A program made the position numbers and the translations under genes. The notes under the pieces were generated by a model. That model was not told where the DNA came from. It searched no databases and worked only from the letters and a program-made list of their open reading frames with translations. A stretch of 64,000 bases of DNA from positions 1-64,000 of the forward strand of contig NZ_FOGD01000011.1 in the NCBI RefSeq assembly GCF_900111115.1, read 5' to 3'. The DNA is from Giesbergeria anulus. GTDB lineage: Bacteria; Pseudomonadota; Gammaproteobacteria; Burkholderiales; Burkholderiaceae_C. Shown piece by piece: positions 4,807 to 46,690 of this stretch (positions are counted from its first letter, which is position 1; every line of letters starts with the position of its first letter).

Positions 4807-6444
4807 ATGTACTCTACTCTAGGCACACCCGAAACGCGGCGCGGCAGTTTGGGACGTCGTTTGCTTTCTGCATTTTTGCTGGTGCTGTTGCTGGGCCTGA
4901 TGGGGACTTTGGTGGGCCTGTGGTCACTCAGCCGCATCAATGATGCCACCACCGACATGGTGCAACACGGCATGGCCACAGAGCGTTTGGTGGCTGATGC
5001 CTACCGCGCCCAAGCCATTAATTCTGAACGCTACAAAGCTGTGGCTTTGAGCTCTGAGCCTGAGGTGGGCGAGATTTTGGGGGCAGACATTGTCAAGGCG
5101 CAGGCCAGCTACGATGGCCTGATGGTGCAACTGGATGCGCAGCTAAAATCGCCTGAAGAGCGTGAGTTGCTAGCGCGTATCCACGCCAGCGCCAAAGATT
5201 TTACGCTGGCCCGCACGGAGCTGGTGGCCGCGCGCGATTCGGGCCTGACCGAGCGTATTCGTCTGGTCTATAACAATCGTTTTTTGCCAGCGGCCAATGG
5301 ATTGCAGACTGCTCTAGGGGCACTGACCCAATGGCAGCGCAATACGATTGATGCCCGCCACCGTGAGATTGCGCAGTGGAGTGACTGGGCGCGGTTGGCC
5401 CTGATGGGGTTTACCGCTTTGGCCTTGGTGCTGGGCGGCACTTTGGCACTGTGGCTCAGGCGCAGTATCACGCAGCCCATTGCCACGGCCAGCGCCACTG
5501 CTGACCGGGTAGCCAACTTGGATTTGCGCCAAGAAATACAAGGCCACGCCCGTGATGAAGCAGGGCAGATGCTCACGTCTTTGGCGGTAATGCAAGACGC
5601 TTTGCGCACCCTGGTCGCGCAGGTGCGCGATTCAGCGCAGAGTATTCGCACGGCTACTTCGGAGATTGCTGTGGGCAATGGCGATTTGTCGGCCCGCACA
5701 GAAGAGACGGCCTCCAATCTGCAAGAGACGGCTGCTTCACTGGAGCAAATTACTGGGCGTGTGGCGCAATCGGCAGCGGCGGCACGGCGGGCCGAGGCAT
5801 TGGCCAGCACGGCAGCCACCGTGGCTGAAGAGGGAGGCATGGCAATGACCGAAGTGCAAAACACTATGCATGGGATGCAAGAGTCATCTCGCAAAATTGT
5901 GGACATCATCAGTGTGATTGATGGCATTGCCTTCCAAACCAACATTTTGGCTTTGAATGCTGCGGTAGAGGCGGCACGGGCTGGTGCAGAAGGGCGCGGC
6001 TTTGCCGTGGTAGCCAGTGAGGTGCGCTTGCTCGCTACCCGTTCTGCTGAGGCGGCCCAGCAAATTAAGGGCTTGATCGAGACCTCGGTGGGCCAGGTGC
6101 AAAGTGGCGCTGCATTGGTCAGTAATGCCAGCCAAACGATGGTGCGTACCGTGGCATCTATCCGTGAGGCGGCCCAAGCCATGAGCGAGATCAGCACCGC
6201 TGCTTTGGCTCAAAACGAGGGCATTGGCCAGATCAATGTGGCCGTGGCCCGTATTGACCAAATGACGCAGCAAAACTCGGCATTAGTTGAAGAGTCAGCC
6301 GCTGCCTCTGAGAGCTTGCAGCACCAAGCCCAAGAGCTGGCGCAGTTGATTAGCCGCTTTGTGTTGCCCGACTCTGTGCTGCTGGAACCTAGCAGGCTAG
6401 AGGCTGTGCCTGCCCTGCAACTGAAGATGTCGCCGGGCCTTTGA
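4807..6444 (+). CDS. Methyl-accepting chemotaxis protein (4HB type)
   Basis: A 545-residue transmembrane chemoreceptor. TM1 is about residues 17-40, followed by a periplasmic helical domain of four-helix-bundle type (about 41-195). TM2 is about 197-218, followed by a HAMP domain and a cytoplasmic signalling hairpin. The conserved tip region is visible as [22 protein letters not shown] followed by [12 protein letters not shown]. No C-terminal CheR-binding pentapeptide such as NWETF is seen. The gene stands alone with no che genes nearby. A TTGACA box at 4718-4723 could belong to its promoter, but the matching -10 (TATGGG) is weak. Confidence 0.93.
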   Translation: MYSTLGTPETRRGSLGRRLLSAFLLVLLLGLMGTLVGLWSLSRINDATTDMVQHGMATERLVADAYRAQAINSERYKAVALSSEPEVGEILGADIVKAQASYDGLMVQLDAQLKSPEERELLARIHASAKDFTLARTELVAARDSGLTERIRLVYNNRFLPAANGLQTALGALTQWQRNTIDARHREIAQWSDWARLALMGFTALALVLGGTLALWLRRSITQPIATASATADRVANLDLRQEIQGHARDEAGQMLTSLAVMQDALRTLVAQVRDSAQSIRTATSEIAVGNGDLSARTEETASNLQETAASLEQITGRVAQSAAAARRAEALASTAATVAEEGGMAMTEVQNTMHGMQESSRKIVDIISVIDGIAFQTNILALNAAVEAARAGAEGRGFAVVASEVRLLATRSAEAAQQIKGLIETSVGQVQSGAALVSNASQTMVRTVASIREAAQAMSEISTAALAQNEGIGQINVAVARIDQMTQQNSALVEESAAASESLQHQAQELAQLISRFVLPDSVLLEPSRLEAVPALQLKMSPGL

Positions 6445-11897: not shown

Positions 11898-13751
11898 TCA
11901 AAGGCGAAATGCTGCCATCAGGGTAGTTAGGCGACTGGCCTGTTGTCCCAAGTCGGCAGCCACCGAGGTGCTTTGCTCCACCAAGGAGGTGTTTTCCTGC
12001 GTGACGGTATCGAGTTGCGCTACGGCGCAACCAATCTGTTCTAGTCCTTGGCTTTGTTCTTGGCTGGCCTGACTGATTTCTTGAACCAGTTGATCCATCT
12101 GGGAGACTTGGCGCAGGATGTTGTCCATAGAACTGCCAGCCCCTTTGGCTTGTTGAGAACCTAAATTGACAGTTTGCACATTGGCCTCGATGAGTTCTTT
12201 GATTTGCTTGGCAGCTTCCCCTGAGCGTTGGGCCAGCATACGCACCTCTGAGGCCACCACAGCAAAGCCCCGGCCTTGCTCTCCGGCGCGGGCTGCCTCT
12301 ACGGCTGCATTAAGCGCCAATATGTTGGTTTGAAATGCAATGCCGTCAATCACCCCCGTGATGTCGGTAATCTTGGACGATGTACCATTGATCTCTGTCA
12401 TGGTCTGGATTACATGGCCCACCACCTGGCCGCCTTGCTGCGCTGCTTGGGTGGCCTGATTGGCAATTTGGGCTGCGTGTTGTGAGGTGGCTGTGTTGTG
12501 GTGCACAGTGGCAGTGAGCTTTTCCATAGAGGCGGCTGTGCGTTGCAGATTTCCCGCTTGCTCATCCGTTCGTTGGCTTAGGTTGACGCTGCCAGTGGCA
12601 ATTTGGGTGGCATCGGTGGCAATCAGTTGGGCGCTGTGGCGCACATCTCGCACCAGGGTAGATAGCGCATCGACCAGACGGTTAATGGCTTGGCCCAGTT
12701 GGCCTATTTCATCTTGGGTGTTAGCAGGAATTCGATGGGAGAGATCGCCATTGGCAATTTCGGCCAGCAAGCTCACTGCATGTTGTATAGGTGCTGCAAT
12801 GGCACGGCTGACTACAAAGGCCACAGCAACGGCTGCGGCACCCCCGATCAGCAAGGCTATCAAGCCTGCAACGCGAACAGCCTGCAAGATGGGCCCAGTG
12901 AGTTCGGATATTGGAACTTCGGCAATCACATAGGCTTGTAATTCAGGAATAGGGGCAGATACCATGATGTAGTCATTGCCCTCTTTTTGGTAGCGCACTT
13001 GACCAAATGCCTGCTGGCCCAAAAGCTGGCTGGCCATTGTGGCATCCAGACCGGGCATATCCTTGAGGTGGTGTTTGCCATCAATGAGTGCTTTGTCTTG
13101 GTGCATCAGGATGGAACCATTGGCACGTACCAGATAAACCACCCCACTATCGGCAATTTTGTATTGGGCAATGCTCTGTGCTACGGCATCTACCGACAGC
13201 GCAAGGCCAGTGACGGCCCGCTGCCCAACGGGGCCATCAACGCGCACATTGATGAACATCATGTAGTTTTGAGCTGCAACATCTAGATCAAGGTTGAGTG
13301 CGTAGTCCACCTTGGAATTGAGTGCTTCTGAAAACCAAGTTTCTGTGGGCAAGATGGTGCGGGTAGAGCCATCGTCTTTTTGGTACTTCATGCCGCTTTC
13401 AGAACACCAAAAAACCCCTGCTGCTGACTGTTGTTTTTTGATGGCGTTGGCATAACGCAACCAAGTGGCATGTCCCGATTCAGGCATACCTGCCCGGTCC
13501 CAATCGATCAAGAAGGCGTTATCGGCCATGCCCCGTGCGGCATTGATAGAGGGGGCCAGCTGGCGCTGAATGTCGGAGCGGATGCCTTGTACCAGTGCAG
13601 GTAGTTCTTCTGTAAAAGCGCGTTGGTGGATTTCCTTAGTAATCATGCTGCTACTGATGGTGGCAGAGATGGCACTAAAAAGGATCAGGGACAAAACTAG
13701 ACTGCCAATCGATTTGGTACTGATGGATAAATTCTTAAAGTGGTGCAACAT
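11898..13751 (-). CDS. Methyl-accepting chemotaxis protein with Cache-type sensor
   Basis: A 617-residue chemoreceptor. TM1 is about residues 12-34. The long periplasmic region (about 35-280) looks like a double Cache sensor: it carries [34 protein letters not shown] and [19 protein letters not shown]2 is about 286-310, followed by HAMP and the signalling hairpin with [22 protein letters not shown] and [18 protein letters not shown]. The frame is open from a TTG at 13757. ATG 13751 (MLHHFKNL) is chosen. Cache domains in this class usually bind small organic acids or amino acids; the ligand is unknown. Confidence 0.9.
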
Positions 13752-13801
13752 GGGCAATAAGGGAGTGCTTAACGAGGCGCTAGAGAGTTATTATTTGGAA
13801 G

Positions 13802-33021: not shown

Positions 33022-33879
33022 TCACCCCGCCAGCCCCAGACGTTTGCAAATTTCTAGTGTGGCAGTGTTCTGGTTCATGGTGTAGAAATGTAGTGCGGGC
33101 GCGCCACCTTGGCGCAGTTGCTCGCACAGTTGGGTGACTACATCCAAGCCAAAGGCTTTGATGCTGGCGGTATCGTCGCCATAGGCTTGCAGACGCAGGC
33201 GAATCCAACGCGGAATCTCTGCGCCACAGGCGTCTGAAAAGCGCAGCAACTGGGTGGAGCTGGCAATGGGCATGATCCCTGGTACCACCGGCACGTCAGC
33301 CCCCAGTTTGCGCGCATCTTCTACAAAGCGAAAATAAGCATCGGCGTTGTAAAAATACTGGGTGATGGCTGAGTCGGCCCCGGCGCGCACCTTGGTGGCA
33401 AACGCCTGCAAGTCAGCCTCAGGCGATTTGGCTTGTGGATGCACTTCGGGGTAAGCGGCCACTTCAATCTGAAAGTCTTGCCCAGTCTCAGCGCGAATAA
33501 AGGCAACCAAATCGCTGGCGTAATTAAATTCACCGCCCAAGCCATAGCCGCTGGGCAAATCGCCGCGCAGGGCCACGAGGCGGCGCACGCCCATCGCTTT
33601 GAGGGTAGCCAGTTGCTCGCGCACGGTGTCGCGGGTGGCACCAATGCAAGAAAAGTGCGAGGCTGCATCCATGCCTTCGGCCAAGATGTCGCGCACGGTG
33701 GCAAAGGTGCCCTCGTGCGTGGAGCCGCCCGCGCCGTAGGTGACGGAGCAAAACTCTGGGCGCAGCGCATACAGCTGCTGGCGCACGGCTTGCAGCTTGC
33801 TGGCCCCTTCGGGGGTTTTTGGGGGAAAAAATTCTAGGCTCACCGGCAAGCCGGTAGCTGATGCAGTGGCAGCAGTCAT
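33022..33879 (-). CDS. metF: 5,10-methylenetetrahydrofolate reductase
   Basis: A 285-residue flavoenzyme making 5-methyltetrahydrofolate for methionine synthesis. Blocks: SLEFFPPKTPEGASKLQ, FCSVTYGAGGSTHEGT, LVALRGDLPSGYG and ADSAITQYFYNADAYFRFV. Its ATG overlaps the tlyA stop (ATGA). It is the last gene of the ahcY-tlyA-metF operon, placing methyl-group supply under the SAH riboswitch upstream. Confidence 0.96.
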   Translation of the reverse strand: MTAATASATGLPVSLEFFPPKTPEGASKLQAVRQQLYALRPEFCSVTYGAGGSTHEGTFATVRDILAEGMDAASHFSCIGATRDTVREQLATLKAMGVRRLVALRGDLPSGYGLGGEFNYASDLVAFIRAETGQDFQIEVAAYPEVHPQAKSPEADLQAFATKVRAGADSAITQYFYNADAYFRFVEDARKLGADVPVVPGIMPIASSTQLLRFSDACGAEIPRWIRLRLQAYGDDTASIKAFGLDVVTQLCEQLRQGGAPALHFYTMNQNTATLEICKRLGLAG

Positions 33880-34874
33880 GCGGCGCTCCTTGCCAAAACA
33901 AAAAATTCACGGTTGCCGTCACCGCCCGCAATCGGGCTGTCCAGCCAAGTTTGCACGGCCAGGCCCAAACCGGCGCAGCAGTCGCGGATGCGCTGCTCTA
34001 CCACGGGGTAGAGCGCTGCGTCGCGCACGATGCCACCTTTGCCAACTTGGCCCGGCTGCAATTCAAATTGCGGCTTGACCAGCATCAACAGCGTGCCACC
34101 GGGGGCCAGCAGGGGCACCAGTGCGGGCAGTACCAGCGTTAAAGAGATAAAAGACAGATCGCCAGTAATGACGTCAAATGAGGGCGTGATATCCACGCCT
34201 TCTAGCCCTGCACGGCGACGGCGTTGCACCGGCAACGTGCCCGCTTGGCGCGCTTGCTGCTTGGCGGCGCGCTCGGCCTTGAAGGCTTCGATGTCTTGCT
34301 CTTTGGCGTCGTCACTGTCGTCGTATTCTTCATCGACCAAGCCGCCATTGCGCATCCAGCTATAGGGGGCGACGGGCTGGGTGTCGTTGTCTTCGGCTTC
34401 TTCGATCACTTCAGACAATGCCAGTTCGCAGGCGGCCTGCAAATCGGCTGCAGTCATGCTGCGGGCGTTAAGACCCTCCACACACACCACGCGCCCATCT
34501 TGGCGCAAGCGCTCATGCAACTGGCCGTGGCCTACATCGACGCCAATCACCTGTGTCGCCCCTTGCTGGAGCAGGCAATCGGTAAAGCCGCCCGTACTTT
34601 GGCCTACATCCAAGCAGCGCAAGCCGCTCACTTGCAGCCCAGTGGCAGCCAGCGCCCCTTCGAGTTTGAGACCGCCGCGCGAGATGTATTTGGCCTCGGC
34701 ACCATCGAGCAGCCGCAACTCGGCCATGACCGGGATTTCATCGCCGTTTTTGGCTACTTTTTGCCACGGTGCGAATGACGACAAGCGCCACTCGACCCCG
34801 GCAGTAATCAGCCGCTGCGCTTGGGAGCGCGTGGCCGCATGGCCCTTTTCTACCAAAAAAACATCTGCACGCAT
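33876..34874 (-). CDS. tlyA: TlyA-family RNA methyltransferase with long insertion
   Basis: A 332-residue protein; usual family length is about 245-270. An N-terminal S4 domain (ADVFLVEKGHAATRSQAQRLI) is followed by a Rossmann methyltransferase: YISRGGLKLEGAL, CLDVGQSTGGFTDCLLQQGA, ITGDLSFISL and LVKPQFELQPGQVGKGGIVRD. Between residues about 148 and 228 there is an extra charged segment, first acidic (EEAEDNDTQ, VDEEYDDSDDAKEQD) and then basic (AAKQQARQAGTLPVQRRRR). TlyA enzymes methylate 2'-OH groups of rRNA. The gene is between ahcY and metF with short spacing (24 nt and a 4-nt overlap). Confidence 0.88.
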   Translation of the reverse strand: MRADVFLVEKGHAATRSQAQRLITAGVEWRLSSFAPWQKVAKNGDEIPVMAELRLLDGAEAKYISRGGLKLEGALAATGLQVSGLRCLDVGQSTGGFTDCLLQQGATQVIGVDVGHGQLHERLRQDGRVVCVEGLNARSMTAADLQAACELALSEVIEEAEDNDTQPVAPYSWMRNGGLVDEEYDDSDDAKEQDIEAFKAERAAKQQARQAGTLPVQRRRRAGLEGVDITPSFDVITGDLSFISLTLVLPALVPLLAPGGTLLMLVKPQFELQPGQVGKGGIVRDAALYPVVEQRIRDCCAGLGLAVQTWLDSPIAGGDGNREFFVLARSAA

Positions 34875-34898: not shown

Positions 34899-36332
34899 TT
34901 AGTAGCGGTAGCTATCGGCCTTGTAAGGGCCGTTTTTGGGTACGCCAATGTAGGCGGCTTGGGAGTCAGTCAGCTCGGTGAGCATGGCACCGACCTTCTT
35001 CAGGTGCAGGCGGGCCACCTTCTCGTCGAGGTGCTTAGGCAGCACATAGACCTTGCCGTTTTGGTATTGGTCGGGCTTGGTGAACAGCTCGATTTGGGCG
35101 ATGGTTTGGTTGGCAAACGAGGCGCTCATCACAAAGCTGGGGTGGCCGGTGGCGCAGCCCAAATTGACCAAACGGCCCTTAGCCAGCAAGATAATTTTCT
35201 TGCCGTCTGGGAACTGGATGTGATCGACTTGGGGCTTGATCTCTTCCCACTGGTATTTTTCAATCGACGCCACGTCGATTTCGTTGTCAAAGTGGCCGAT
35301 GTTGCAGACGATGGCCTGGTCTTTCATGGCGGCCATGTGCTCGTGGCGAATGACGTCGCGGTTGCCGGTGGTGGTCACGAAGATGTCGGCCTTGTCGGCA
35401 GCGTATTCCATCGTGACTACTTTGTAGCCTTCCATTGCCGCTTGCAGGGCGTTGATGGGGTCGATTTCAGTCACCCAAACTTGGGCGCTCAGGGCGCGCA
35501 GCGCTTGGGCCGAACCCTTACCCACATCGCCATAACCGGCCACACAGGCCACTTTGCCTGCAATCATCACGTCGGTGGCGCGCTTGATGCCATCGACCAA
35601 AGACTCGCGGCAGCCATAGAGGTTATCAAACTTGCTCTTGGTGACCGAATCATTGACGTTGATGGCGCGGAACAGCAGCGTGCCCTTGGCCGACATTTCG
35701 TTCAGGCGGTGAACGCCGGTGGTGGTTTCTTCGGTCACGCCAATGATTTCCGCCGATTTGCGCGTGTACCATGTGGCATCCACGGCCAGTTTGGCGCGGA
35801 TGGCGGCAAACAGGATGGTTTCTTCTTCGCTGGTGGGCTTGTCGAGCACCGACAGGTCTTTTTCAGCGCGCTGGCCCAAGTGCATGAGCATGGTGGCATC
35901 GCCGCCATCGTCCAAAATCATGTTCGGGCCTTCGCCGGGGGTACCGGCTGCGCCAAACTCAAAAATGCGGTGGGTGTAATCCCAGTAGTCGGACAGTGAT
36001 TCGCCCTTGACGGCAAATACCGGCGTGCCACCATCGGCAATGGCGGCAGCGGCGTGGTCTTGGGTGCTAAAAATGTTGCACGAAGCCCAGCGCACTTGCG
36101 CGCCCAGTGCTTCCAGAGTTTGGATGAGCACGGCGGTTTGGATGGTCATGTGCAGGCTGCCGGTGATGCGTGCGCCTTTGAGGGGCTGGCTGGCGGCAAA
36201 CTCTTCACGGATGGCCATCAGGCCGGGCATTTCGGTCTCGGCGATGCGGATTTCTTTGTGGCCCCAAGCGGCCAAGGCGATGTCAGCAATCGCGCAATCG
36301 GCGTTAACGAAGGTGGAAGAAGGTGCATTCAT
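34899..36332 (-). CDS. ahcY: Adenosylhomocysteinase
   Basis: A 477-residue NAD-dependent enzyme that splits SAH into adenosine and homocysteine, relieving inhibition of methyltransferases. NAD-binding motif [16 protein letters not shown], substrate blocks [17 protein letters not shown] and [13 protein letters not shown], and the C-terminal [10 protein letters not shown] are typical. ATG 36332 is the family start ([20 protein letters not shown]); the extra upstream codons lie in the leader. An SAH aptamer with a terminator platform occupies 36383-36485, ending about 50 nt before the start. Confidence 0.97.
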
Positions 36333-36382: not shown

Positions 36383-36417
36383 AAAAAAAAAGCTCACCGC
36401 ACGGAAAGTGGATGAGC
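36383..36417 (-). terminator. Riboswitch-controlled terminator before ahcY
   Basis: On the minus strand GCTCATCC (36410-36417) pairs with GGTGAGC (36392-36398), followed by nine T residues (36383-36391). The GCTCA used here is also the 3' strand of the aptamer's P1 helix (GAGCGT/ACGCTC). The two folds are mutually exclusive. SAH binding should therefore prevent termination and switch ahcY on, as known for this riboswitch class. Confidence 0.85.
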
Positions 36418-36485
36418 GTCGTTGCTAGGGTGGGTTCCGAGCCTCACGCCCCGCTATGCTGGGGACGCTGCAACGCTCCTCGGAA
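36413..36485 (-). promoter_or_regulatory. SAH riboswitch aptamer B, upstream of ahcY
   Basis: Minus-strand features match the SAH riboswitch class. TTCCGAG pairs with CTCGGAA (7-bp pseudoknot), GAGCGT pairs with ACGCTC (P1), and the conserved core reads GAGGAGCGTTGCAGCG. GTGAGGCTCGG and AACGACGCTCA follow. The variable hairpin is CCCC/GGGG. Compared with the known Ralstonia aptamer (from memory), P1 changes GCGC/GCGC to GCGT/ACGC, a compensated change. A perfect TATAAT lies 5 nt upstream (36491-36496) inside the chemoreceptor gene, so ahcY may have its own promoter there. The first 42 nt are also the end of the chemoreceptor reading frame. Confidence 0.93.
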
Positions 36486-38120
36486 GGAAGGATTATACGA
36501 AACTTGGCTGGGTTTGCCGCTGGCGATCGTGTCGATAGCGGGGCGACTCACTACACCCACCACAACGTCTTCTGTTGGATGTGATGACAGTTTGAAAACC
36601 GCCACTGTTTCTACCAACTCTTGGGCTTGGTTTTCTAAACTGCTCGCAGCAGCGGCCATTTCTTCGACCAACGCTGCATTTCGTTGGGTGGTGTGATCCA
36701 TCTGTGTGACGGCTTCACCCACTTGTGCTACCCCTTGGCTTTGCTCGCTACTGGCAGCACTGATTTCACCCATGATGTCGGTCACGCGGCGAATGGAGCC
36801 GACCACTTCGGTCATGGTGTCCCCGGCTTGATCGACCAAGATAGAGCCTTCTTTGACCCGTTGGACACTGGCATCGATCAGGATTTTAATTTCTTTGGCT
36901 GCCTCGGCAGAACGTCCCGCTAAAGAGCGAACTTCAGAGGCCACCACCGCAAAACCACGGCCTTGTTCGCCTGCCCGTGCAGCTTCGATTGCGGCATTCA
37001 AGGCCAAAATGTTAGTTTGAAAAGCAATTCCATCAATTATGCTGGTAATGGCTGCGATTTTTTTCGATGAATCATCAATCTCCTTCATGGTTCCCACCAC
37101 TTGGGCCACCACTTCGCCGCCTTTGATCGCTACGTTACTTGCACTTTTTGCCAATTGATTGGCTTGGCGGGCGTTTTCGGCATTTTGTGTGACGGTAGAA
37201 CCGAGCTCTTCCATTGCGGCAGCAGTTTCTTCTAGTGCACTGGCTTGTTGCTCAGTTCTGGTTGACAAATCATTATTGCCTTGCGATATTTGGGCGCTGG
37301 CTGTAGCCACGCTCTCTGAATTTTGACGGACGTTATACACCACACTAGACAGTGAGGCTTGCATCTGTGCGACGGCTGCCATGACACTGACGGTATCGTT
37401 ACTGCGAACCTGTAAAGGAGTGTCTAAATCACCTTTGGCTACACGATTCACTGCTTCTGACAACTCAGAAGGCTCTGCCCCCAGTGCGCGTAACAAATCA
37501 CGAGAAATAATCAAACCGACCAATGAGCCAATAACAAACATTAATATAGCCATGCCGGTCATTAGGCTGACGGAAGTGCGGGCCAATTCTGCGGCTTCCC
37601 CTGCGATCTTTTCAGATAGTTCTTTTTGTAGCTTGCGGGAGTCATCCGTAGCTTTAAAAACAATGTTTTGCAGAGCAAGTGTTTCGTTAAAAAGTAAACG
37701 CTCGGCTTCGGCTTCATCACCTTTTTCAGTGAGGGCTATTACACGATCAATGCTGCTGTTATAAATGCCACGGTTGTCGGTGATAATTTTTAAAAGGTTA
37801 CGCGCTTGGGGTATTTTTAAGGTTTTATCAAGTTTTTCGAGTAATTCGCTGTTTGCTGCGCGCAGGGTGGCGATTTTTTTCTTTTCTTCGCTATGCAAAG
37901 CGACATTTTCACTTATTACAATATTGCGGGTAAGTAGGCCAATCGAGTTAAAGTTTTCTTTGAGTTCTGTGAACTGAGCCACCTTGACCATGCGGTCGTT
38001 GGCTACCTGATCAAGATCAGTTGCTAGTTCGCTCATTCGGAATGAGCCAATGATGGTAATCAAAATGCCTATCGTGGCAACGATACCAAAGCCCAGTGCT
38101 AGACGAGTAACAACTTTCAT
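36444..38120 (-). CDS. Methyl-accepting chemotaxis protein between two SAH riboswitches
   Basis: A 558-residue chemoreceptor. TM1 is about residues 7-28, a four-helix-bundle periplasmic domain about 29-185, TM2 about 188-210, HAMP to about 265. The signalling hairpin carries [22 protein letters not shown] and [18 protein letters not shown]. After the hairpin, a 50-residue tail ends [13 protein letters not shown]; these last 13 residues and the TGA are encoded by aptamer B. No NWETF-like tail is seen. The first half is clearly more AT-rich than its neighbours and uses many Lys, Ile and Asn codons, suggesting acquisition. AGGAG lies 6 nt before the ATG, and aptamer A ends 18 nt before it. Confidence 0.94.
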
Positions 38121-38138
38121 GAAGTTCTCCTAACATTT

Positions 38139-38213
38139 TGAGCGTCGTTGTGGTGGTGGATTCCGAGCCTCACGTACCCCTGTGCTGGGGGCGCGCTGCA
38201 ACGCTCCTCGGAA
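38139..38213 (-). promoter_or_regulatory. SAH riboswitch aptamer A, upstream of a chemoreceptor gene
   Basis: The minus strand repeats every conserved element of aptamer B: TTCCGAG/CTCGGAA, GAGGAGCGTTGCAGCG, GTGAGGCTCGG, and ACGACGCTCA pairing with GAGCGT. The variable hairpin differs in sequence but still pairs (CCCC AGCACA GGGG), and the 3' spacer also differs. There is no terminator after it. The aptamer ends 7 nt before the AGGAG of the chemoreceptor gene, so any control is more likely translational. It begins 9 nt after the gmhB-like stop. Confidence 0.88.
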
Positions 38214-38222
38214 GTGGCCGGA

Positions 38223-38849
38223 TCATCCGGAGTTGGTGGTGGCCAGTGCAACCGATGTTAGGGGGGCACACGCAGCCATTGCGGTAGGCACTGGCGTGGC
38301 CGGGGCCAGTAATTGATCGACCAACGCGACCATACTGGCGTGGGTTTGTATGCCTGTGGGCCACTCAGGCGGCAACGGCGCTGCTGGGTCTAACTCTGCG
38401 GCTTGACCGGTGCAGACCAAATGCAAAATTCCCTTTACCGTGGCACCCGCTTGCATATGCGGTAGGCAACTGCCAATGATGCAGACTTTGCTGGCATCCA
38501 CACCATAGCGCTCGCAAATTTGCTCTAACAAGCCGGGGGCGGGCTTGTGGCAATAGCAGGCTTCGTCGGGGGTATGGGGGCAGTAAAACACAGCATCAAT
38601 GCGCCCACCCACGGCAGCCAGTTGCTTGTGCATAGCCCCATGAACCGCATTGAGCGTGGCCATATCGAACAGGCCGCGTCCCAGCCCCGGCTGGTTGGCC
38701 GCTACCACCACATGCCAGCCTGCATGGTTGAGCCGGGCAATGGCATCCAGCGCACCGGGCAGGGGTTGCCAATCGGTGGGGGAGGTGATGAACTCATCTT
38801 CGCCCAAGGCGTTGATGGTCCCGTCGCGATCAAGAATGGCGAGTTTCAT
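38223..38849 (-). CDS. gmhB: GmhB-like HAD phosphatase with altered motif IV
   Basis: A 208-residue HAD-family protein resembling D-glycero-beta-D-manno-heptose-1,7-bisphosphate 7-phosphatase of lipopolysaccharide core synthesis. The nucleophile motif LAILDRDGTIN is intact and the zinc-loop cysteines are present (YCPHTPDEACYCHKP). Motif IV, normally VGDSLRDLQAG, reads IIGSCLPHMQAG: both acidic metal ligands are replaced by Ser and His. The C-terminal tail (about 30 residues) is also unusual. Activity is doubtful. ATG 38849 is 8 nt after the membrane-protein stop, which belongs to the glyS operon. Confidence 0.78.
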   Translation of the reverse strand: MKLAILDRDGTINALGEDEFITSPTDWQPLPGALDAIARLNHAGWHVVVAANQPGLGRGLFDMATLNAVHGAMHKQLAAVGGRIDAVFYCPHTPDEACYCHKPAPGLLEQICERYGVDASKVCIIGSCLPHMQAGATVKGILHLVCTGQAAELDPAAPLPPEWPTGIQTHASMVALVDQLLAPATPVPTAMAACAPLTSVALATTNSG

Positions 38850-39488: not shown

Positions 39489-41627
39489 TCAAGCCGCCAG
39501 ACGTGACAGATCGGCCACGCGGTTCATCGCTTCGTGCAGGGTTTTGAGCAACCCTTGGCGGTTGAGGCGCAAATCCATTTCTTCGGCGTTGACCATCACA
39601 TCGTCAAAGAAGGCATCGACCGGCGCGCGCAGCACGGCCAGCGTTTGCAGGCTGGTGGTGTAGTCTCCCGCGTCAAACTGGGCATTGGCTTCGGGCACAA
39701 AGCGTTGCAAGGCGGCAAACAAGTCTTGCTCGGCTTGCTCTTGCAACAGCGCTGCGTTGACGTGGGCATCGACTTCGCCTGCCTTTTTCAGGATGTTGCC
39801 CACGCGCTTGTTGGCGGCAGCCAAGGCTGGTGCTTCGGGCAGGGCGGCAAAGGCACGCACGGCTTCTAGGCGTTTGGCCACTTCGGCCAGACGCTGGGGG
39901 CGCAGGGCTAGCACGGCATCCACTTCTTGGGCGCGGTAGCCTTGCTCGCGCAGTGCACCGGCCAAACGGTCGTAGATAAAGTCGGCCAGCGCGGGTGTTG
40001 CGTCTGTAATTTTGTCGCCAAAGGCCGGGACGGCACTGGCCAACAATGTGCCCAACTCCAGCGGCAGGTCTTTTTCGACCAACATGCGAATCACGCCCAA
40101 GGCGTGGCGGCGCAGCGCGAATGGGTCGCGGTCGCCGGTGGGCAGGTTGCCAATGCCGAACATACCGACCAAGGTTTCGAGTTTGTCGGCCAGTGCCACC
40201 ACCACGCCGGTTTGGTTGCGCGGCAGGGTATCACCGGCAAAACGCGGCTTGTAGTGGTCTTCAATGGCGTCGGCCACATCGGCGCTCAATCCGTCATTGA
40301 GTGCGTAGTAGCGGCCCATGATGCCTTGCAGCTCTGGAAACTCGCCCACCATGTCGGTGACTAGGTCGGTTTTTGCCAGCAAGGCGGCTTGGTCAATCCA
40401 CTGGGGCAGGGCGGTATCGCCTAATTGCCCGGCAATAGCGTGGGCAATGGCGCGCACGCGCTGCACGCGCTCGCCTTGGGTGCCCAGTTTGTTGTGATAG
40501 ACCACTTTGCCCAGCCCCTCAACGCGCGAGGCCAGCGTTTTTTTGCGGTCTTGGTCAAAGAAGAATTTGGCATCGGCCAAACGTGGGCGCACCACGCGCT
40601 CGTTGCCTTGTACCACCGCACTGGCATCGTCGGGGCTGATGTTGCTGACCACCAAGAACTGGTGTGTGAGCTTGCCAGCGGCGTCGAGCAGCGGGAAGTA
40701 TTTTTGGTTTGCCTTCATCGTCAAGATCAGGCATTCCTGCGGCACGTCGAGGAATTCTTTTTCAAACTCGCATACCAGCACATTGGGGCGTTCGACCAGT
40801 GCAGTCACTTCGTCCAGCAGTGCGGCATCTTCAATCGGGCGTACGCCATTGCCAATGCGCTCTGCGGCGGCGGCCAATTGGCGGGCGATGTCGGCGCGGC
40901 GCTTGGTAAAGCTGGCAATCACGGCACCATCACGCGCCAGTGTGGCGGCGTAGCTGTCGGCGTCGGTAATCACCACTGGTGATACCGCCGCCTCAAAGCG
41001 GTGGCCTTGTGTGGTGTGGCCTGCTTGCAAACCCAGTGCCTTGACGGGCACCACGGTGCTGCCATGCAGCGCCACCAAACCGTGGGCCGGACGCACAAAA
41101 TGCACGCTGCTCCAGCCGGGCAACTCGCAGTCGCGCTCCAATTGGTAGGTCATGACCTTGGGGATGGGCAACTTGGCAATGGCTTCGTCCAGCGCTTTTT
41201 GTAGGCCCACGTCCAGCGTAGCGCCAGTGACGAGGCTGTGATAGAACAAAGCCTCGGCCTTGCCATCGGGGGCGCGGTGCAGGCTGGCGGCTACGGCGGC
41301 TGGATCGGTCGGGTCGATGTCGGCACCCAGAGCGGCGAGTTTCTTCAGCAGTGCGGGGGTGGCGTGGCCTTGGGCATCCAGCCCCACGGCGACTGGCATG
41401 AGTTTGACTTGCACCGGCTTGTCTTCGGCCTTGAGCCAGATATGGCTGATGTGGGCGGCCAAACGGCGTGGCGAGGCATAGGCCGTTGTCACGGTGTCCG
41501 CCGAGGTCAACCCTTGGGCTTGGAGTTGTTCAAACAGCACGCCTGCAAAGGCGTCGCCCAGCTTTTGCAGGGCTTTGGGGGGCAGTTCTTCTACGAACAG
41601 TTCAACCAGCAAATTTTTTGTCGTCAT
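39489..41627 (-). CDS. glyS: Glycyl-tRNA synthetase beta subunit
   Basis: A 712-residue subunit of the heterotetrameric (alpha2beta2) glycyl-tRNA synthetase, containing tRNA-binding domains. It starts NLLVELFVEELPPKALQKLGD and has the family blocks GNGVRPIEDAALLDEVTALVE, SNISPDDASAVVQGNERVVRPRL and RRHALGVIRMLVE. ATG 41627 is the family start. It is separated from glyQ by a 3.9-kb restriction-modification gene, whereas the two subunits are normally adjacent. Confidence 0.96.
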   Translation of the reverse strand: MTTKNLLVELFVEELPPKALQKLGDAFAGVLFEQLQAQGLTSADTVTTAYASPRRLAAHISHIWLKAEDKPVQVKLMPVAVGLDAQGHATPALLKKLAALGADIDPTDPAAVAASLHRAPDGKAEALFYHSLVTGATLDVGLQKALDEAIAKLPIPKVMTYQLERDCELPGWSSVHFVRPAHGLVALHGSTVVPVKALGLQAGHTTQGHRFEAAVSPVVITDADSYAATLARDGAVIASFTKRRADIARQLAAAAERIGNGVRPIEDAALLDEVTALVERPNVLVCEFEKEFLDVPQECLILTMKANQKYFPLLDAAGKLTHQFLVVSNISPDDASAVVQGNERVVRPRLADAKFFFDQDRKKTLASRVEGLGKVVYHNKLGTQGERVQRVRAIAHAIAGQLGDTALPQWIDQAALLAKTDLVTDMVGEFPELQGIMGRYYALNDGLSADVADAIEDHYKPRFAGDTLPRNQTGVVVALADKLETLVGMFGIGNLPTGDRDPFALRRHALGVIRMLVEKDLPLELGTLLASAVPAFGDKITDATPALADFIYDRLAGALREQGYRAQEVDAVLALRPQRLAEVAKRLEAVRAFAALPEAPALAAANKRVGNILKKAGEVDAHVNAALLQEQAEQDLFAALQRFVPEANAQFDAGDYTTSLQTLAVLRAPVDAFFDDVMVNAEEMDLRLNRQGLLKTLHEAMNRVADLSRLAA

Positions 41628-41694
41628 AGCGGTGCTCTTGGAATAGCTAAAAATGAGGGCGGATTTTGGCGGACTGTGGGTGGGCCAGCGCCGC

Positions 41695-44600
41695 TTAGGC
41701 GCTGATGCCAAACAGGGTCAGGTATTCTGGGCGCTTGGCCGCCATGACCTTAAAGCTGTGCAGCACATGCAGCAGCTCGTCGTGGCCCAAACCGTACAGG
41801 CGGGCCACGCGCTGGTCAATGTCGGCGCGCAGTTTGTCTTGGGCTTTGGCGGTGGCGGGCAGGTCTTTTTTGGCGATGCCCAAGGCTTTCATTTGCGGGG
41901 CCAGGGTGCTAGCAAAGTCGTCCCAACTGGCGGCCAGTGTGAGCAGCAGGGCATTTTTAGCCAGCGCTGTGTAGTCGGGGTTTTGCAGGATTTCCTCGTC
42001 GCTGGGCTGGGGCATGGGCAGGCGGTAGAGGTAGGTTTGGCTCACGTTGATTTGCACCATAAGGCGTGCTAACCAATCCATCGGCAGACTGTTAAACCAT
42101 GCCAACGCAAACAGCAGGCGCAGGTATGAAACAGGCTGCACGGTAACGCGTTGTTCTTGCTTGTTGCCATTAGCACTTGCAGGGGGCGGCAATGCGTAAT
42201 GTTTGGGCACAGTTGCAAACATCGAGTGGCCCGTACCGCAGTCTTGGGGTAATAACGCAAAAACTAACGTTCGCTCATTGGTGTCACTGGCAATGACGCG
42301 AAACGCCAAACGCACAAACTCACGATCAAAACGCACAGCACTGGCATATTTCGTTACCTGTGCTTTGGGTACCCCCAAATCCTGCGCCATGCGGTACAGC
42401 TCTTTGCTGTGTAACCGCGCATCAAAAGCCGCAGGCTCTAGCCAATACTGTGCCGTGTCAAACAAGTGTTTGTATTGCCAGATCATTTTGCCCTCGTACA
42501 AAGGCAAAGCGCTAGGCGTGGCACGCTCCAAGAATAAATCCTTGTCGTGCGTCATGTGCAACTCGCGCCGGAAGTCCAGCCAATCAGCCGACAGTGGCGC
42601 AAAGGCGGCGTGGCACTTGCCCAAGATGGGCAAATCGGCAGCATCGCGCAGTTCCATTAGCGCCCATTGTTGTGGCGACAAGGTTTTGAGCGTTGCCAGC
42701 GGGTAGGGCACATGGCGCGCGGGGTCGTCTAGCTCTGCGGCATCCAGCACATAAAACGCGGTGTCGATGGTGGCTACTTTGGCTGCCGCTTTTTTGCCTT
42801 TGGGTGGTGGTACGTTAAGTACCTGCATCAGGGCAAATTTATAGCTGCGATGGACGTCTGGGAAGATGCCTTTGTTGTTCTCAAAGCTGTAAAAGAACGG
42901 CATTTGGCAGTGCGTCAGGATGTGCCGGCGCAGTGCCAGCGAGCCTTCTTCAAACATCAAGGCACTGGGCAGCACATAGTTGAGGCTGCCGCCGGGGGCC
43001 AGCAGGCGCAGGTTGCGTTCTACAAACAAGCGAAACAGGTTGCCATCAATAGCCCCCTTGTTCAGCGGAAACAGGTCTTTTTCTTTGTAGTAGGCATCAA
43101 GCGCCCCTGTCTTGCTCTGTGCTTCGTCGTATGCCGCTTGAATATGTGCGCTGCCCAACAGCCGCTGTTGAATGGCTGCCTTTTCGGTATTTTTGGCGCT
43201 GCGGTAGCGGCTGTGGTACTGCGGGAAAAAGTCGGTATCGCTGAACTTGGTTTTGTCCCACGGCGGGTTGCCCAGCACGACATCAAAGCCCGATGCACTG
43301 CCGCCAAAGGCTTCGGGAAAGGCCACTTCGTAATGGAAGAAGTGGTAGCGCCGGGCGTAGTCTTCAATCTGCCGCAGCACTTGCGTGGGCGCGCTGCCGT
43401 TTTCGTCAAACAGTTGTGCTAGCAGGTCGGGGGTTTTGTCCAGCGCTTCGCATTCTGGCGCTTTGCCTTCGGCCAACAACATGCGCCGCGTGGTCATAAA
43501 GCTCAAGGCGCGAAACAGCGGGCGCAGTTGGGGCGTGATGCTGTTGCGCCACAGGGCTTTGCTTTGGGCTACTTCGGCGGCGGTGGTATCGCGCATGGCG
43601 TCTAGTTCGTGCATGACGCTGCGCAGGGCGTCAAAGCGGGCAGCAATGCCTTGCACAAACAAGTCGTCTTGTGCGCCGGTGGTGGCGTTGTAATTTTCGC
43701 AATCTTGCACCGTGGCACCCACCAAGGCGTTGCCGTGCTGAATGTGGTGCTCGATAAATGACAGCGGTGTGCCAAAAATAAAGCTGTCCATCCACAGGCT
43801 TAGGCGGGCCAGCTCCACGGCAAAGGGGTTCAGATCGACGCCATAAATGCAGCGCTTGAGCAGCAGGCGTTTCAAAATCTGGCCGTCGTCGGGGGTGTAC
43901 GGCAAGTTGAGCGCCGCAAACTGCTGGGTGATTTTGGCGCGTTCCTCGTGGAGCAGTTGTGCCAGTGGGGCGTCGTGCTCTAGCCGCTGCACAGCCATAT
44001 CGGCCAAGCAGGCCAGTGCCTGCACCAAAAAATGGCCGCTGCCGCAGGCGTTGTCCAAAATTTTGAGTTGGGCCAGTGGTTTGCCTGCCTCCAGCGCCCG
44101 CTCAATGCTCGCTTGCACCAGCCGGTCGGACAGACTGGCGGGCGTGTAGTAGCTGGCGCTGGTTTTGCGCGAGTTGCTGGCGCTTTTCAGGTACACGGCC
44201 CCGGCCTGCACGCTCAATTCGCGCAGCACCTTAAAGCCTTTTTCTTTGCGCAGTTGCGCTACGTCATAGGCGTCAAAGTAGGCTTCTACGCTTTTGCCTG
44301 CGGTGCTGCTGCTTTGGTATTCGAGGTAGGTGGCGGTTTCAGGTGCGCACTCAAAGCGAAATTCAAGCAAACCTTCGTAAATGCGGCCCAAATGGGTCAC
44401 ATTCATGTTTTTGAAGTCGCGCCGGGTGTCAAACAGCGTATTGCCCCGGTGGCTTTTGAACAGCAGTTTGTCCAAAATCGACAGCAGGGTGCGGTTGTCA
44501 AAGATTTTTGCTGCTTTGAGCAGCGGCGCACGTTGCGGGTCAAACAGGCCACCGTTGAACAGTGGCACGTCAATGTCGCCTTCGCCTTCGTCCAGCATCC

Positions 44601-45630
44601 GAAACAGTTGGCGCAATGCCAACATACCGTTGTGCTGCTGCGGGCGTTGGGCCATATCACGGCGCAACTTTTGGTGCAGGGCTTGCAAGCTGTGTTCGTT
44701 GTAAAACGGGTGCAGGGCTAGCAAGTCGCGGTTTTTGTCTTCAAAATAAACCACGAACAGCAAGCGAAACAGCAAGACAATGCTGTTTTCGTAGACCGCC
44801 TCTAGGGTGGGGGGCTGCGGTTGGGCGTTGGCTTGGTAAATGGCCTTGCCAATCAGCTCAAACAAAGAGTCTTCGCCGTCGTAGCCGTAAATCACGGCTT
44901 TGAGGTTTTCTTCTACCGCCACCGTGAATGCGCTGGAGTCAGCAATCGCCTGTTCCATTGCATTGCCGGTGGGTGCGGTAGCTGCCGGAGCGTAGGTGTC
45001 GCGGCTAAAAAAGAAGGTAAATAACGCCAGCGCCTGCTGCTGCTCATCGCCAGCAGGCAGGGCCAAGATCTTTTCTAGGTCAAACTCAATGAACGATTTT
45101 TTGGCGGTGATTTTGTCGGTGTCATAGACCCGCCAACACCGGCCATTGGTCAAAAAGCCAAAGCGCACGCGCAGGGTGCTGAGGTAATCCTGCAATTGGT
45201 GGTGCGGGTTGTCTTGGCGCGCCTTGCCGGTATCGAGGGGCTTGTCCCAGGCTTTGGATTCGCAAATGGCAGCAATCAGCCGGTGGCCTTCGCTTTGCTG
45301 GGCCATCAGGGCTTGGGCTTGCTCAGGTTGCAACAGCAAACACCAATCGGGCTTGGCGGTTTTGCCTTGCACCACCAGCACTTGCTGCGGCACGCTCACC
45401 CAGCCCAGTTGTTTGAGCAATGGGCTGATAAAGCAGTCTTCTAATTGCGCCTCATTGCTGGCGGCCAACTGGCTGGGTTGAAACTGCTGCTGCAACCACG
45501 CCAACCACCCCGACGGCAGGGGCTGTGCTGCCAGTTCCCGGCTTTTTTGCTGCAAAAAGCTGGTGTCCAGCAGGCTGTTGTTCAGCCACGGCGCAGCAAA
45601 CAGTTCTAGGGTGGTGGTAGGTGTAGGCAT
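41695..45630 (-). CDS. Type IIG-like restriction-modification enzyme (nuclease-methyltransferase fusion)
   Basis: A 1311-residue protein from ATG 45630. The N-terminal nuclease region shows PDW (94-96) and ESK (124-126), consistent with a PD-(D/E)xK site. A helical connector ends in SASYYTP (491-497). The adenine-methyltransferase domain carries motif I DNACGSGHF (526-534), GVDLNPFAVELARLSLW, and motif IV NPPW (788-791). The last 400 residues would hold the target-recognition domain. Such Eco57I-like enzymes both methylate and cut DNA and act as phage defence. It lies exactly between glyQ (16 nt upstream) and glyS (67 nt downstream), all on the minus strand, so it would be transcribed with them. 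The recognition site is unknown. A related BREX-like methyltransferase lacking nuclease activity is a less likely alternative. Confidence 0.85.
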   Translation of the reverse strand: MPTPTTTLELFAAPWLNNSLLDTSFLQQKSRELAAQPLPSGWLAWLQQQFQPSQLAASNEAQLEDCFISPLLKQLGWVSVPQQVLVVQGKTAKPDWCLLLQPEQAQALMAQQSEGHRLIAAICESKAWDKPLDTGKARQDNPHHQLQDYLSTLRVRFGFLTNGRCWRVYDTDKITAKKSFIEFDLEKILALPAGDEQQQALALFTFFFSRDTYAPAATAPTGNAMEQAIADSSAFTVAVEENLKAVIYGYDGEDSLFELIGKAIYQANAQPQPPTLEAVYENSIVLLFRLLFVVYFEDKNRDLLALHPFYNEHSLQALHQKLRRDMAQRPQQHNGMLALRQLFRMLDEGEGDIDVPLFNGGLFDPQRAPLLKAAKIFDNRTLLSILDKLLFKSHRGNTLFDTRRDFKNMNVTHLGRIYEGLLEFRFECAPETATYLEYQSSSTAGKSVEAYFDAYDVAQLRKEKGFKVLRELSVQAGAVYLKSASNSRKTSASYYTPASLSDRLVQASIERALEAGKPLAQLKILDNACGSGHFLVQALACLADMAVQRLEHDAPLAQLLHEERAKITQQFAALNLPYTPDDGQILKRLLLKRCIYGVDLNPFAVELARLSLWMDSFIFGTPLSFIEHHIQHGNALVGATVQDCENYNATTGAQDDLFVQGIAARFDALRSVMHELDAMRDTTAAEVAQSKALWRNSITPQLRPLFRALSFMTTRRMLLAEGKAPECEALDKTPDLLAQLFDENGSAPTQVLRQIEDYARRYHFFHYEVAFPEAFGGSASGFDVVLGNPPWDKTKFSDTDFFPQYHSRYRSAKNTEKAAIQQRLLGSAHIQAAYDEAQSKTGALDAYYKEKDLFPLNKGAIDGNLFRLFVERNLRLLAPGGSLNYVLPSALMFEEGSLALRRHILTHCQMPFFYSFENNKGIFPDVHRSYKFALMQVLNVPPPKGKKAAAKVATIDTAFYVLDAAELDDPARHVPYPLATLKTLSPQQWALMELRDAADLPILGKCHAAFAPLSADWLDFRRELHMTHDKDLFLERATPSALPLYEGKMIWQYKHLFDTAQYWLEPAAFDARLHSKELYRMAQDLGVPKAQVTKYASAVRFDREFVRLAFRVIASDTNERTLVFALLPQDCGTGHSMFATVPKHYALPPPASANGNKQEQRVTVQPVSYLRLLFALAWFNSLPMDWLARLMVQINVSQTYLYRLPMPQPSDEEILQNPDYTALAKNALLLTLAASWDDFASTLAPQMKALGIAKKDLPATAKAQDKLRADIDQRVARLYGLGHDELLHVLHSFKVMAAKRPEYLTLFGISA

Positions 45631-45646
45631 ACTGCAGCAATCGGGC

Positions 45647-46552
45647 TCAGGCGGCTTTTTTCTGGATTTGTGCAACCCACTCGCGCGGGGCCATCGGAAA
45701 GCCCAAGCGTTCGCGGCTTTCGTAGTAGCTTTGTGCCACGGCCCGCGCCAAGTTGCGGATGCGGCCAATGTAGGCGGCGCGCTCGGTCACGCTGATAGCG
45801 CCGCGTGCATCCAGCAGGTTAAAGCTGTGCCCGGCCTTGAGCACTTGCTCATAGGCGGGCAGGGCCAATTGCTGCTCCATCAGGTATTTGGCCTGCTTTT
45901 CATGGGCATTGAAGGCGGTAAACAGAAAATCGGCGTCGGAGTGCTCAAAGTTGTAGGTGGATTGCTCCACTTCGTTTTGGTGGTACACATCGCCGTACTT
46001 GAGCGTGTCTGTCCATTGCAGGTTGTAGACGTTGTCCACGCCTTGCAGGTACATGGCCAAGCGCTCTAGGCCGTAGGTGATCTCGCCGGTAGCGGGCTTG
46101 CAGTCAATGCCGCCCACTTGTTGAAAGTAGGTGAACTGCGTCACTTCCATGCCGTTGAGCCAGACCTCCCAGCCCAAGCCCCAAGCGCCGAGGGTGGGGT
46201 TTTCCCAATCGTCTTCGACAAAACGGATGTCGTTCTTTTTCAGGTCAAAGCCCAGCGCCTCTAGGCTGCCCAAGTACAGCTCTAGGATGTTGGCTGGGGC
46301 TGGTTTGAGCACCACTTGGTATTGGTAGTAGTGTTGCAGGCGGTTGGGGTTGTTGCCATAGCGGCCATCTTTGGGGCGGCGGCTGGGCTGCACATAGGCT
46401 GCTTTCCAAGGTTCGGGGCCAATGGCGCGCAAAAAGGTGGCAGTGTGCGAGGTGCCAGCGCCCACTTCCATGTCGTAGGGTTGCAGGAGTGCGCAGCCCT
46501 GGGCATCCCAGTAGGACTGCAACTTCAAGATGATTTGCTGGAAGGTCAACAT
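45647..46552 (-). CDS. glyQ: Glycyl-tRNA synthetase alpha subunit
   Basis: A 301-residue catalytic subunit that activates glycine with ATP. Starts [20 protein letters not shown]; class II motif regions [22 protein letters not shown] and [21 protein letters not shown] are present. ATG 46552 is the family start. Upstream (46553-46690) there is no gene; it holds the glyQ promoter region and the asparaginase terminator. Confidence 0.97.
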
Positions 46553-46690
46553 GGCTTTGAGAGGCTCGCTGGCAGGGCCAGGGCCGGGCAATAAGAAAGG
46601 ATAAAAAGGCGCGCGAGGAGGATGCCACCGCGTGTGCAGCCCATGATTTTAGGGGGCCAGTGGCACAGGTGCCGATTGCACCGCTCCAAA

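Follow-up and report, generated by a model that had tools for sequence, protein, structure and literature searches.

An SAH-class aptamer upstream of a chemoreceptor gene, apparently placed by recombination at the ahcY leader in Giesbergeria anulus

The locus and its two aptamers

The window analysed here is a stretch of 64,000 nucleotides (positions 1 to 64,000 of contig NZ_FOGD01000011.1), and all coordinates refer to it. On its minus strand glyS is followed by a small unassigned gene, a HAD-type phosphatase gene (38223-38849; PF00702, 31.1 bits), an aptamer designated A, a methyl-accepting chemotaxis protein (MCP) gene, a second aptamer, B, and then ahcY, tlyA and metF. These last three encode S-adenosylhomocysteine (SAH) hydrolase (34899-36332; PF05221, 469.9 bits), a tlyA-like FtsJ/S4 rRNA methyltransferase (33876-34874; PF01728 and PF01479) and methylenetetrahydrofolate reductase (33022-33879; PF02219). 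Further upstream, a 1357-aa Eco57I/MmeI-like restriction-modification protein is encoded at 41695-45768 (minus strand), between glyQ (45647-46591) and glyS (39489-41711); at the equivalent place the genus member G022 (L034) encodes a 67% identical protein, and the genus member G015 has a protein end of 95% identity.

In an Rfam covariance search of the window, the SAH riboswitch model RF01057 matched aptamer A at 38133-38214 (minus strand) over its full length (model positions 1-78) with 48.2 bits, above the gathering score of 37, and an E-value of 7.8e-06 for a search space of 64 kb and 4227 Rfam families. P1, P2, the linker, the conserved core and a pseudoknot arm able to pair with GAGCG were all found, as were the elements TTCCGAG/CTCGGAA, GAGCGTTG/CAACGACGCTC and GTGAGGCTCGG named in the preliminary description, whose claim of a complete SAH-class aptamer is borne out by the score. 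Chance likeness to the model, given the E-value across the whole library and window, the intact core motifs and the 51.1 bits scored by the orthologous copy in G015, has a negligible probability and was rejected. By sequence and predicted structure aptamer A is a true SAH-class aptamer, in a new gene position. The last base of its 3' arm (...CGCTC) is 38140, the AGGAG lies at 38131-38127 and the ATG of the MCP gene begins at 38120, which places the arm about 8 nt from AGGAG and 19 nt from the ATG; the distances of 7 and 18 nt given earlier apply when the aptamer is taken to include the A at 38139.

The open reading frame directly 3' of aptamer A (36444-38120, minus strand, 558 aa) is an MCP gene, as had been proposed: it carries MCPsignal (PF00015, 182.4 bits), 4HB_MCP_1 (PF12729, 83.5 bits) and a weak HAMP match (23.5 bits, below its cut-off of 25). 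Against G015 its dN is 0.039 and its dS 0.162 (dN/dS about 0.24), and by this measure it is under purifying selection. Two more MCP genes lie in the window, at 4807-6444 (plus strand) and 11898-13757 (minus strand), with no Rfam match adjoining either; in the genome, 45 MCPsignal matches were counted in total.

Aptamer B, absent from the preliminary description, is the stronger of the two (36407-36487, minus strand; RF01057, 61.7 bits) and lies between the MCP gene and ahcY. From codon 542 onward the MCP frame runs through the ahcY leader, reading its TATAAT -10 box (36492-36497, minus strand) as Tyr-Asn and then entering aptamer B, and its stop codon (36444-36446) is the TGA of the conserved GTGAGG in that aptamer; the same is seen in G015. 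A C-terminal W-x-x-F motif, which we take to resemble the CheR-docking pentapeptide, was counted by eye in 14 of the 22 family MCP homologues with a readable C-terminus (seven of 29 were left out, five being cut at the locus end and two being short frames without a signalling domain), and is missing from both SAH-associated MCPs and from eight other homologues. Since the frame runs into aptamer B and lacks a motif present in 14 of 22 homologues, the receptor's own C-terminal end was likely lost at a recombination junction.

Occurrence and origin of the arrangement

The gene 3' of the aptamer was recorded for 128 distinct SAH hits, made up of 32 loci in the window's own genome and genus, 29 further best loci and 57 other strong hits in the family sample, and 10 hits in five selected genomes, after removal of the duplicates L203, L204 and L205; strong hits are over-represented in this sample, and all come from one family of bacteria. 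The gene was ahcY in 86 cases, metH in 38 and an MCP gene in two, and two weak hits had no assigned gene. Assigned genes begin 18-128 nt after the aptamer arm, and all 38 sampled metH genes 18-96 nt after it. Both MCP cases are one locus in two species, that of the window and G015, in agreement with the earlier statement that no chemoreceptor target of an SAH riboswitch was known. The search of related genomes proposed there yielded the second case, in G015, and none elsewhere (two of 26 genus genomes); a scan of genome contigs recovered one locus, on a Burkholderiaceae MAG contig, and the total for the arrangement stays at two genomes.

An SAH match was present in 245 of 250 genomes of the family sample, and four of the 250 have three matches: the window's genome, G180, G197 and G239. 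The three hits of the window's genome precede the MCP gene, ahcY and metH, the last (contig C8, 48 bits) standing before a gene with Pterin_bind and B12-binding domains. The third aptamer of G239 (L135; C11:845070-845174) lies before a second ahcY gene, which is 78.6% identical to the ahcY of the window. The matches L136 in G180 (38.8 bits) and L137 in G197 (38.1 bits) are weak, lack the core motif searched for and are probably due to chance; the open reading frame after L137 begins, by eye, like DNA ligase LigA. An exact-pattern aptamer search of 399 genomes of the order returned only the two aptamers of the window and is uninformative on other genomes, because the pattern was too strict.

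An MCP orthologue was found in two of 26 genus genomes, and the next-best homologue among 399 family genomes reaches no more than 50% identity across the 241 N-terminal residues. At E 1e-37, 28 of these 399 genomes (the window's included) have a homologue; in an order-wide sample of 399 genomes, only the window's own gene was returned at E 1e-60. None of the 29 loci of family MCP homologues contains an RF01057 match at gathering score. The idea of the MCP gene and SAH leader as a widespread unit was dropped on these counts.

Comparison with two genus members points to the origin of the arrangement. In G015 the layout HAD - A - MCP - B - ahcY is that of the window, with MCP and ahcY proteins 91.6% and 99.4% identical. 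In G022 the HAD gene is followed by one aptamer and ahcY, and the MCP gene is absent there. The upstream flank of G022 and its aptamer through GGAATCC agree with A, and from ACCCTAGCAACG on, through the terminator hairpin and leader of ahcY, its sequence agrees with B. This hybrid aptamer, A-like in its 5' part and B-like in its 3' part, marks the aptamers as a recombination junction, and, as judged from the alignment, one recombination within the aptamer separates the two layouts. Either the line leading to the window's species and G015 gained an insertion, or G022 underwent a deletion between direct repeats. Among the 26 genus genomes, the HAD gene adjoins the ahcY leader only in these three; in 20 others it is on a different contig or at least 30 kb from that leader, two have the HAD gene and no SAH match, and one has no HAD match. 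An assembly artefact is unlikely, since a separate contig of G015, at about 15% synonymous divergence, shows this layout too.

The position of aptamer A before the MCP gene is apparently accounted for by recombination that wedged this gene into the ahcY leader. The chemoreceptor gene would have come between two aptamer copies in the common ancestor of G015 and the window's species, or at an earlier time and been lost again in G022; with the breakpoint inside the aptamer, A would be an additional copy of the aptamer from the ahcY leader, and the outcome would be the order HAD - A - MCP - B - ahcY-tlyA-metF. Aptamers may in this way provide the homology for recombination, with a passenger gene placed between two copies and given its stop codon by the second.

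Constraint, promoter box and leader hairpins

Substitution rates were computed for five genes of G015 and one of G022 (a 30-nt G022 'MCP' row was not used). Synonymous differences per site against G015 were 0.146 for MCP, 0.168 for HAD, 0.124 for ahcY, 0.18 for tlyA and 0.19 for metF. Of 72 aligned sites, two are substituted between aptamer A and its G015 copy, whose linkers also differ by a 3-nt gap; two or fewer substitutions have a probability of 0.001, 0.0045 and 0.00004 at the synonymous rates of MCP, ahcY and metF, respectively. One substitution exchanges purines at a position that is G in other SAH hits too; the other turns a C-A mismatch in P2, the only mismatch of that helix in the window, into the C-G pair of the G015 copy. 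Both fit the predicted aptamer structure. Compared with B and the G022 aptamer, A has two additional pairs in P2, a helix predicted to fold in either species, at -10.6 and -16.6 kcal/mol. Aptamer B shows no difference in 73 bases. In this one comparison of two genomes, the only two that carry the arrangement, A is thus conserved beyond neutral expectation and less constrained than B, which stayed unchanged over the same time.

The -10 hexamers of 125 distinct SAH leaders were picked by position with our own scoring matrix. TANAAT was found 11-16 nt 5' of AGGAGCG in 118 of them and a one-base variant in five, B retaining TATAAT; GATGAT, two bases off TANAAT, occurs only in the two copies of A, where in the window it overlaps the HAD stop codon (38222-38227 and 38223-38225, respectively, minus strand). 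A promoter 5' of P1 is a recurrent feature of the leaders sampled here; membership of the SAH family does not formally depend on it. It is judged by aligned position, since a general consensus scan for promoters and terminators (two promoter-like sites against 1.6 expected) listed the leader elements of neither A nor B. With its promoter box lost, aptamer A is probably transcribed from upstream, by read-through of the HAD operon.

Downstream of aptamer A no terminator arm was found; a hairpin is predicted over the Shine-Dalgarno (SD) sequence instead (38091-38143, minus strand), in which MCP codons 10-12 supply (U)UGGGC as the partner of GCUCA(A) from the aptamer's arm, and codons 5-8 pair with the SD AGGAG. 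An initial guess that A lacks any expression platform was given up on finding it. Its stability is -15.3 kcal/mol in the window and -16.8 kcal/mol in G015, with 18 and 21 of 300 shuffles equally stable, which falls short of significance at 5%; with GCUC withheld, hairpins of -8.8 and -9.4 kcal/mol are predicted, in which most of the SD is still paired. Whole-leader folds did not exceed shuffles in stability (z -0.32, -0.16 and -1.08). A hairpin whose 5' arm overlaps the 3' arm of the aptamer was obtained for 55 of 67 leaders, both copies of A among them.

In the ahcY leader, the 5' arm of a terminator-like hairpin (36383-36417, minus strand) shares its first bases, GCTC, with aptamer B; GCTCATCCAC forms the stem with GTGCGGTGAGC, and nine T follow (-16.7 kcal/mol; six of 300 shuffles equally stable), and its absence from the consensus scan is due to a bulged stem. 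As read by eye, the GCTCACCTGT arm of the aptamer in genus metH leaders opens a hairpin with ACAGGTGAG in which the SD is placed, which gives translational control a precedent in that group; A lacks the GCTCA..TGAGC type of hairpin seen in the genus ahcY and metH leaders. Seven and five of 300 shuffles were equally stable for two metH leaders of other genus members; the metH leader of the window's own genome failed as a control, its statistic being undefined (300 of 300). The SD hairpin is offered as a suggestion for the platform of A. Translational control, which the preliminary description had read from the 7-nt spacing, is the only mode suggested by the leader anatomy, through the missing terminator arm and the hairpin over the SD; the spacing alone does not show control.

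Possible control of the chemoreceptor by SAH

Judging from the anatomy, aptamer B, with the promoter and terminator hairpin of ahcY kept, would be the usual SAH-ON antitermination switch. Aptamer A would probably be carried on read-through RNA of the HAD operon; in the absence of SAH its 3' arm GCUC would pair with MCP codons and extend the hairpin that hides the SD, and with SAH bound the arm would be held in the pseudoknot and the hairpin would weaken. We give a probability of roughly 0.5 to this explanation as a whole, in which a recombined second ahcY aptamer now most probably serves the MCP gene as a translational ON switch of modest effect; SAH control of the MCP by aptamer A is a plausible hypothesis.

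Aptamer A may instead be a leftover of the recombination, able perhaps to bind SAH and without control over the MCP, which would be expressed by upstream read-through or hardly at all. This is a strong contender, held at somewhat under even odds: the promoter box is lost in both copies of A against TANAAT in 118 of 125 leaders, the hairpin type of the genus ahcY and metH leaders is missing, the SD hairpin is weak against shuffles and leaves the SD mostly paired in both states, and the receptor is one among many (45 matches). Such a leftover is, however, hard to square with substitutions below the synonymous expectation (P 0.00004-0.0045) and with a P2 helix that was remodelled yet pairs in both species. 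A translational ON switch is placed slightly ahead of a functionless leftover.

An extension of the ON-switch reading is doubtful. In it, motility signalling and SAH hydrolysis would be at once separated and coupled by two tandem SAH sensors on one transcript: SAH would control translation of the MCP gene, ribosomes ending in aptamer B would disrupt that aptamer, and the ahcY terminator would then serve the MCP gene.

A steric OFF switch, in which the SAH-stabilised pseudoknot just 5' of the SD blocks the 30S subunit, would agree with the short distances from the arm to AGGAG (about 8 nt) and to the ATG (19 nt), but is very improbable: 19 nt from the ATG is at the edge of the 30S footprint, the 38 sampled metH genes start 18-96 nt after the arm, and genus metH leaders show an ON-type SD hairpin.

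The logic first proposed for the arrangement, that receptor methylation by CheR produces SAH which feeds back on receptor synthesis, is not supported, since this is one of many receptors and its gene seems to have arrived at the locus by chance. Only one of the genome's three SAH hits precedes an MCP gene, the arrangement occurs in two of 26 genus genomes, the promoter box is lost and the position is explained by recombination.

If aptamer A is active, it would be the first case found of a chemoreceptor under SAH sensing, within the accessible part of the open-access literature and the 128 SAH hits from one family, and would link the state of the methyl cycle to motility; even if inactive, the locus would show a riboswitch moving to a new gene.

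In the accessible text of Leyn et al. 2014 (PMC4239095) the core SAH regulon is ahcY and metF, with metH and COG1189 added in Comamonadaceae; its counterpart here is ahcY-tlyA-metF and metH. That of Sun et al. 2013 (PMC3766115) mentions PF04020 and PF04993 for Ralstonia SAH riboswitches. The word 'chemotaxis' is absent from the main text of both, and no paper linking an SAH riboswitch with a methyl-accepting chemotaxis protein was found in the open-access literature as far as accessible. The target of aptamer A, an MCP gene, lies outside SAH and methionine recycling.

Aptamer A is alike in sequence and structure to the SAH riboswitch of ahcY in Burkholderiales and Comamonadaceae, the element represented here by B. 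Unlike that riboswitch, it precedes a gene outside the methyl cycle and lacks the TANAAT box and the terminator hairpin. With the genus metH riboswitch it shares a layout in which the SD and the start codon lie only tens of bases beyond the arm, whereas the hairpin of A differs from that over the metH SD, being weaker and reaching into the coding region.

The c-di-GMP-I riboswitch (RF01051) is commonly associated with chemoreceptor genes, likewise standing 5' of MCP genes, and differs in ligand and aptamer. Such an aptamer was found at one of the 29 loci of MCP homologues (L113:1159-1244, plus strand; 65.6 bits), 5' of a 40% identical MCP gene in G238.
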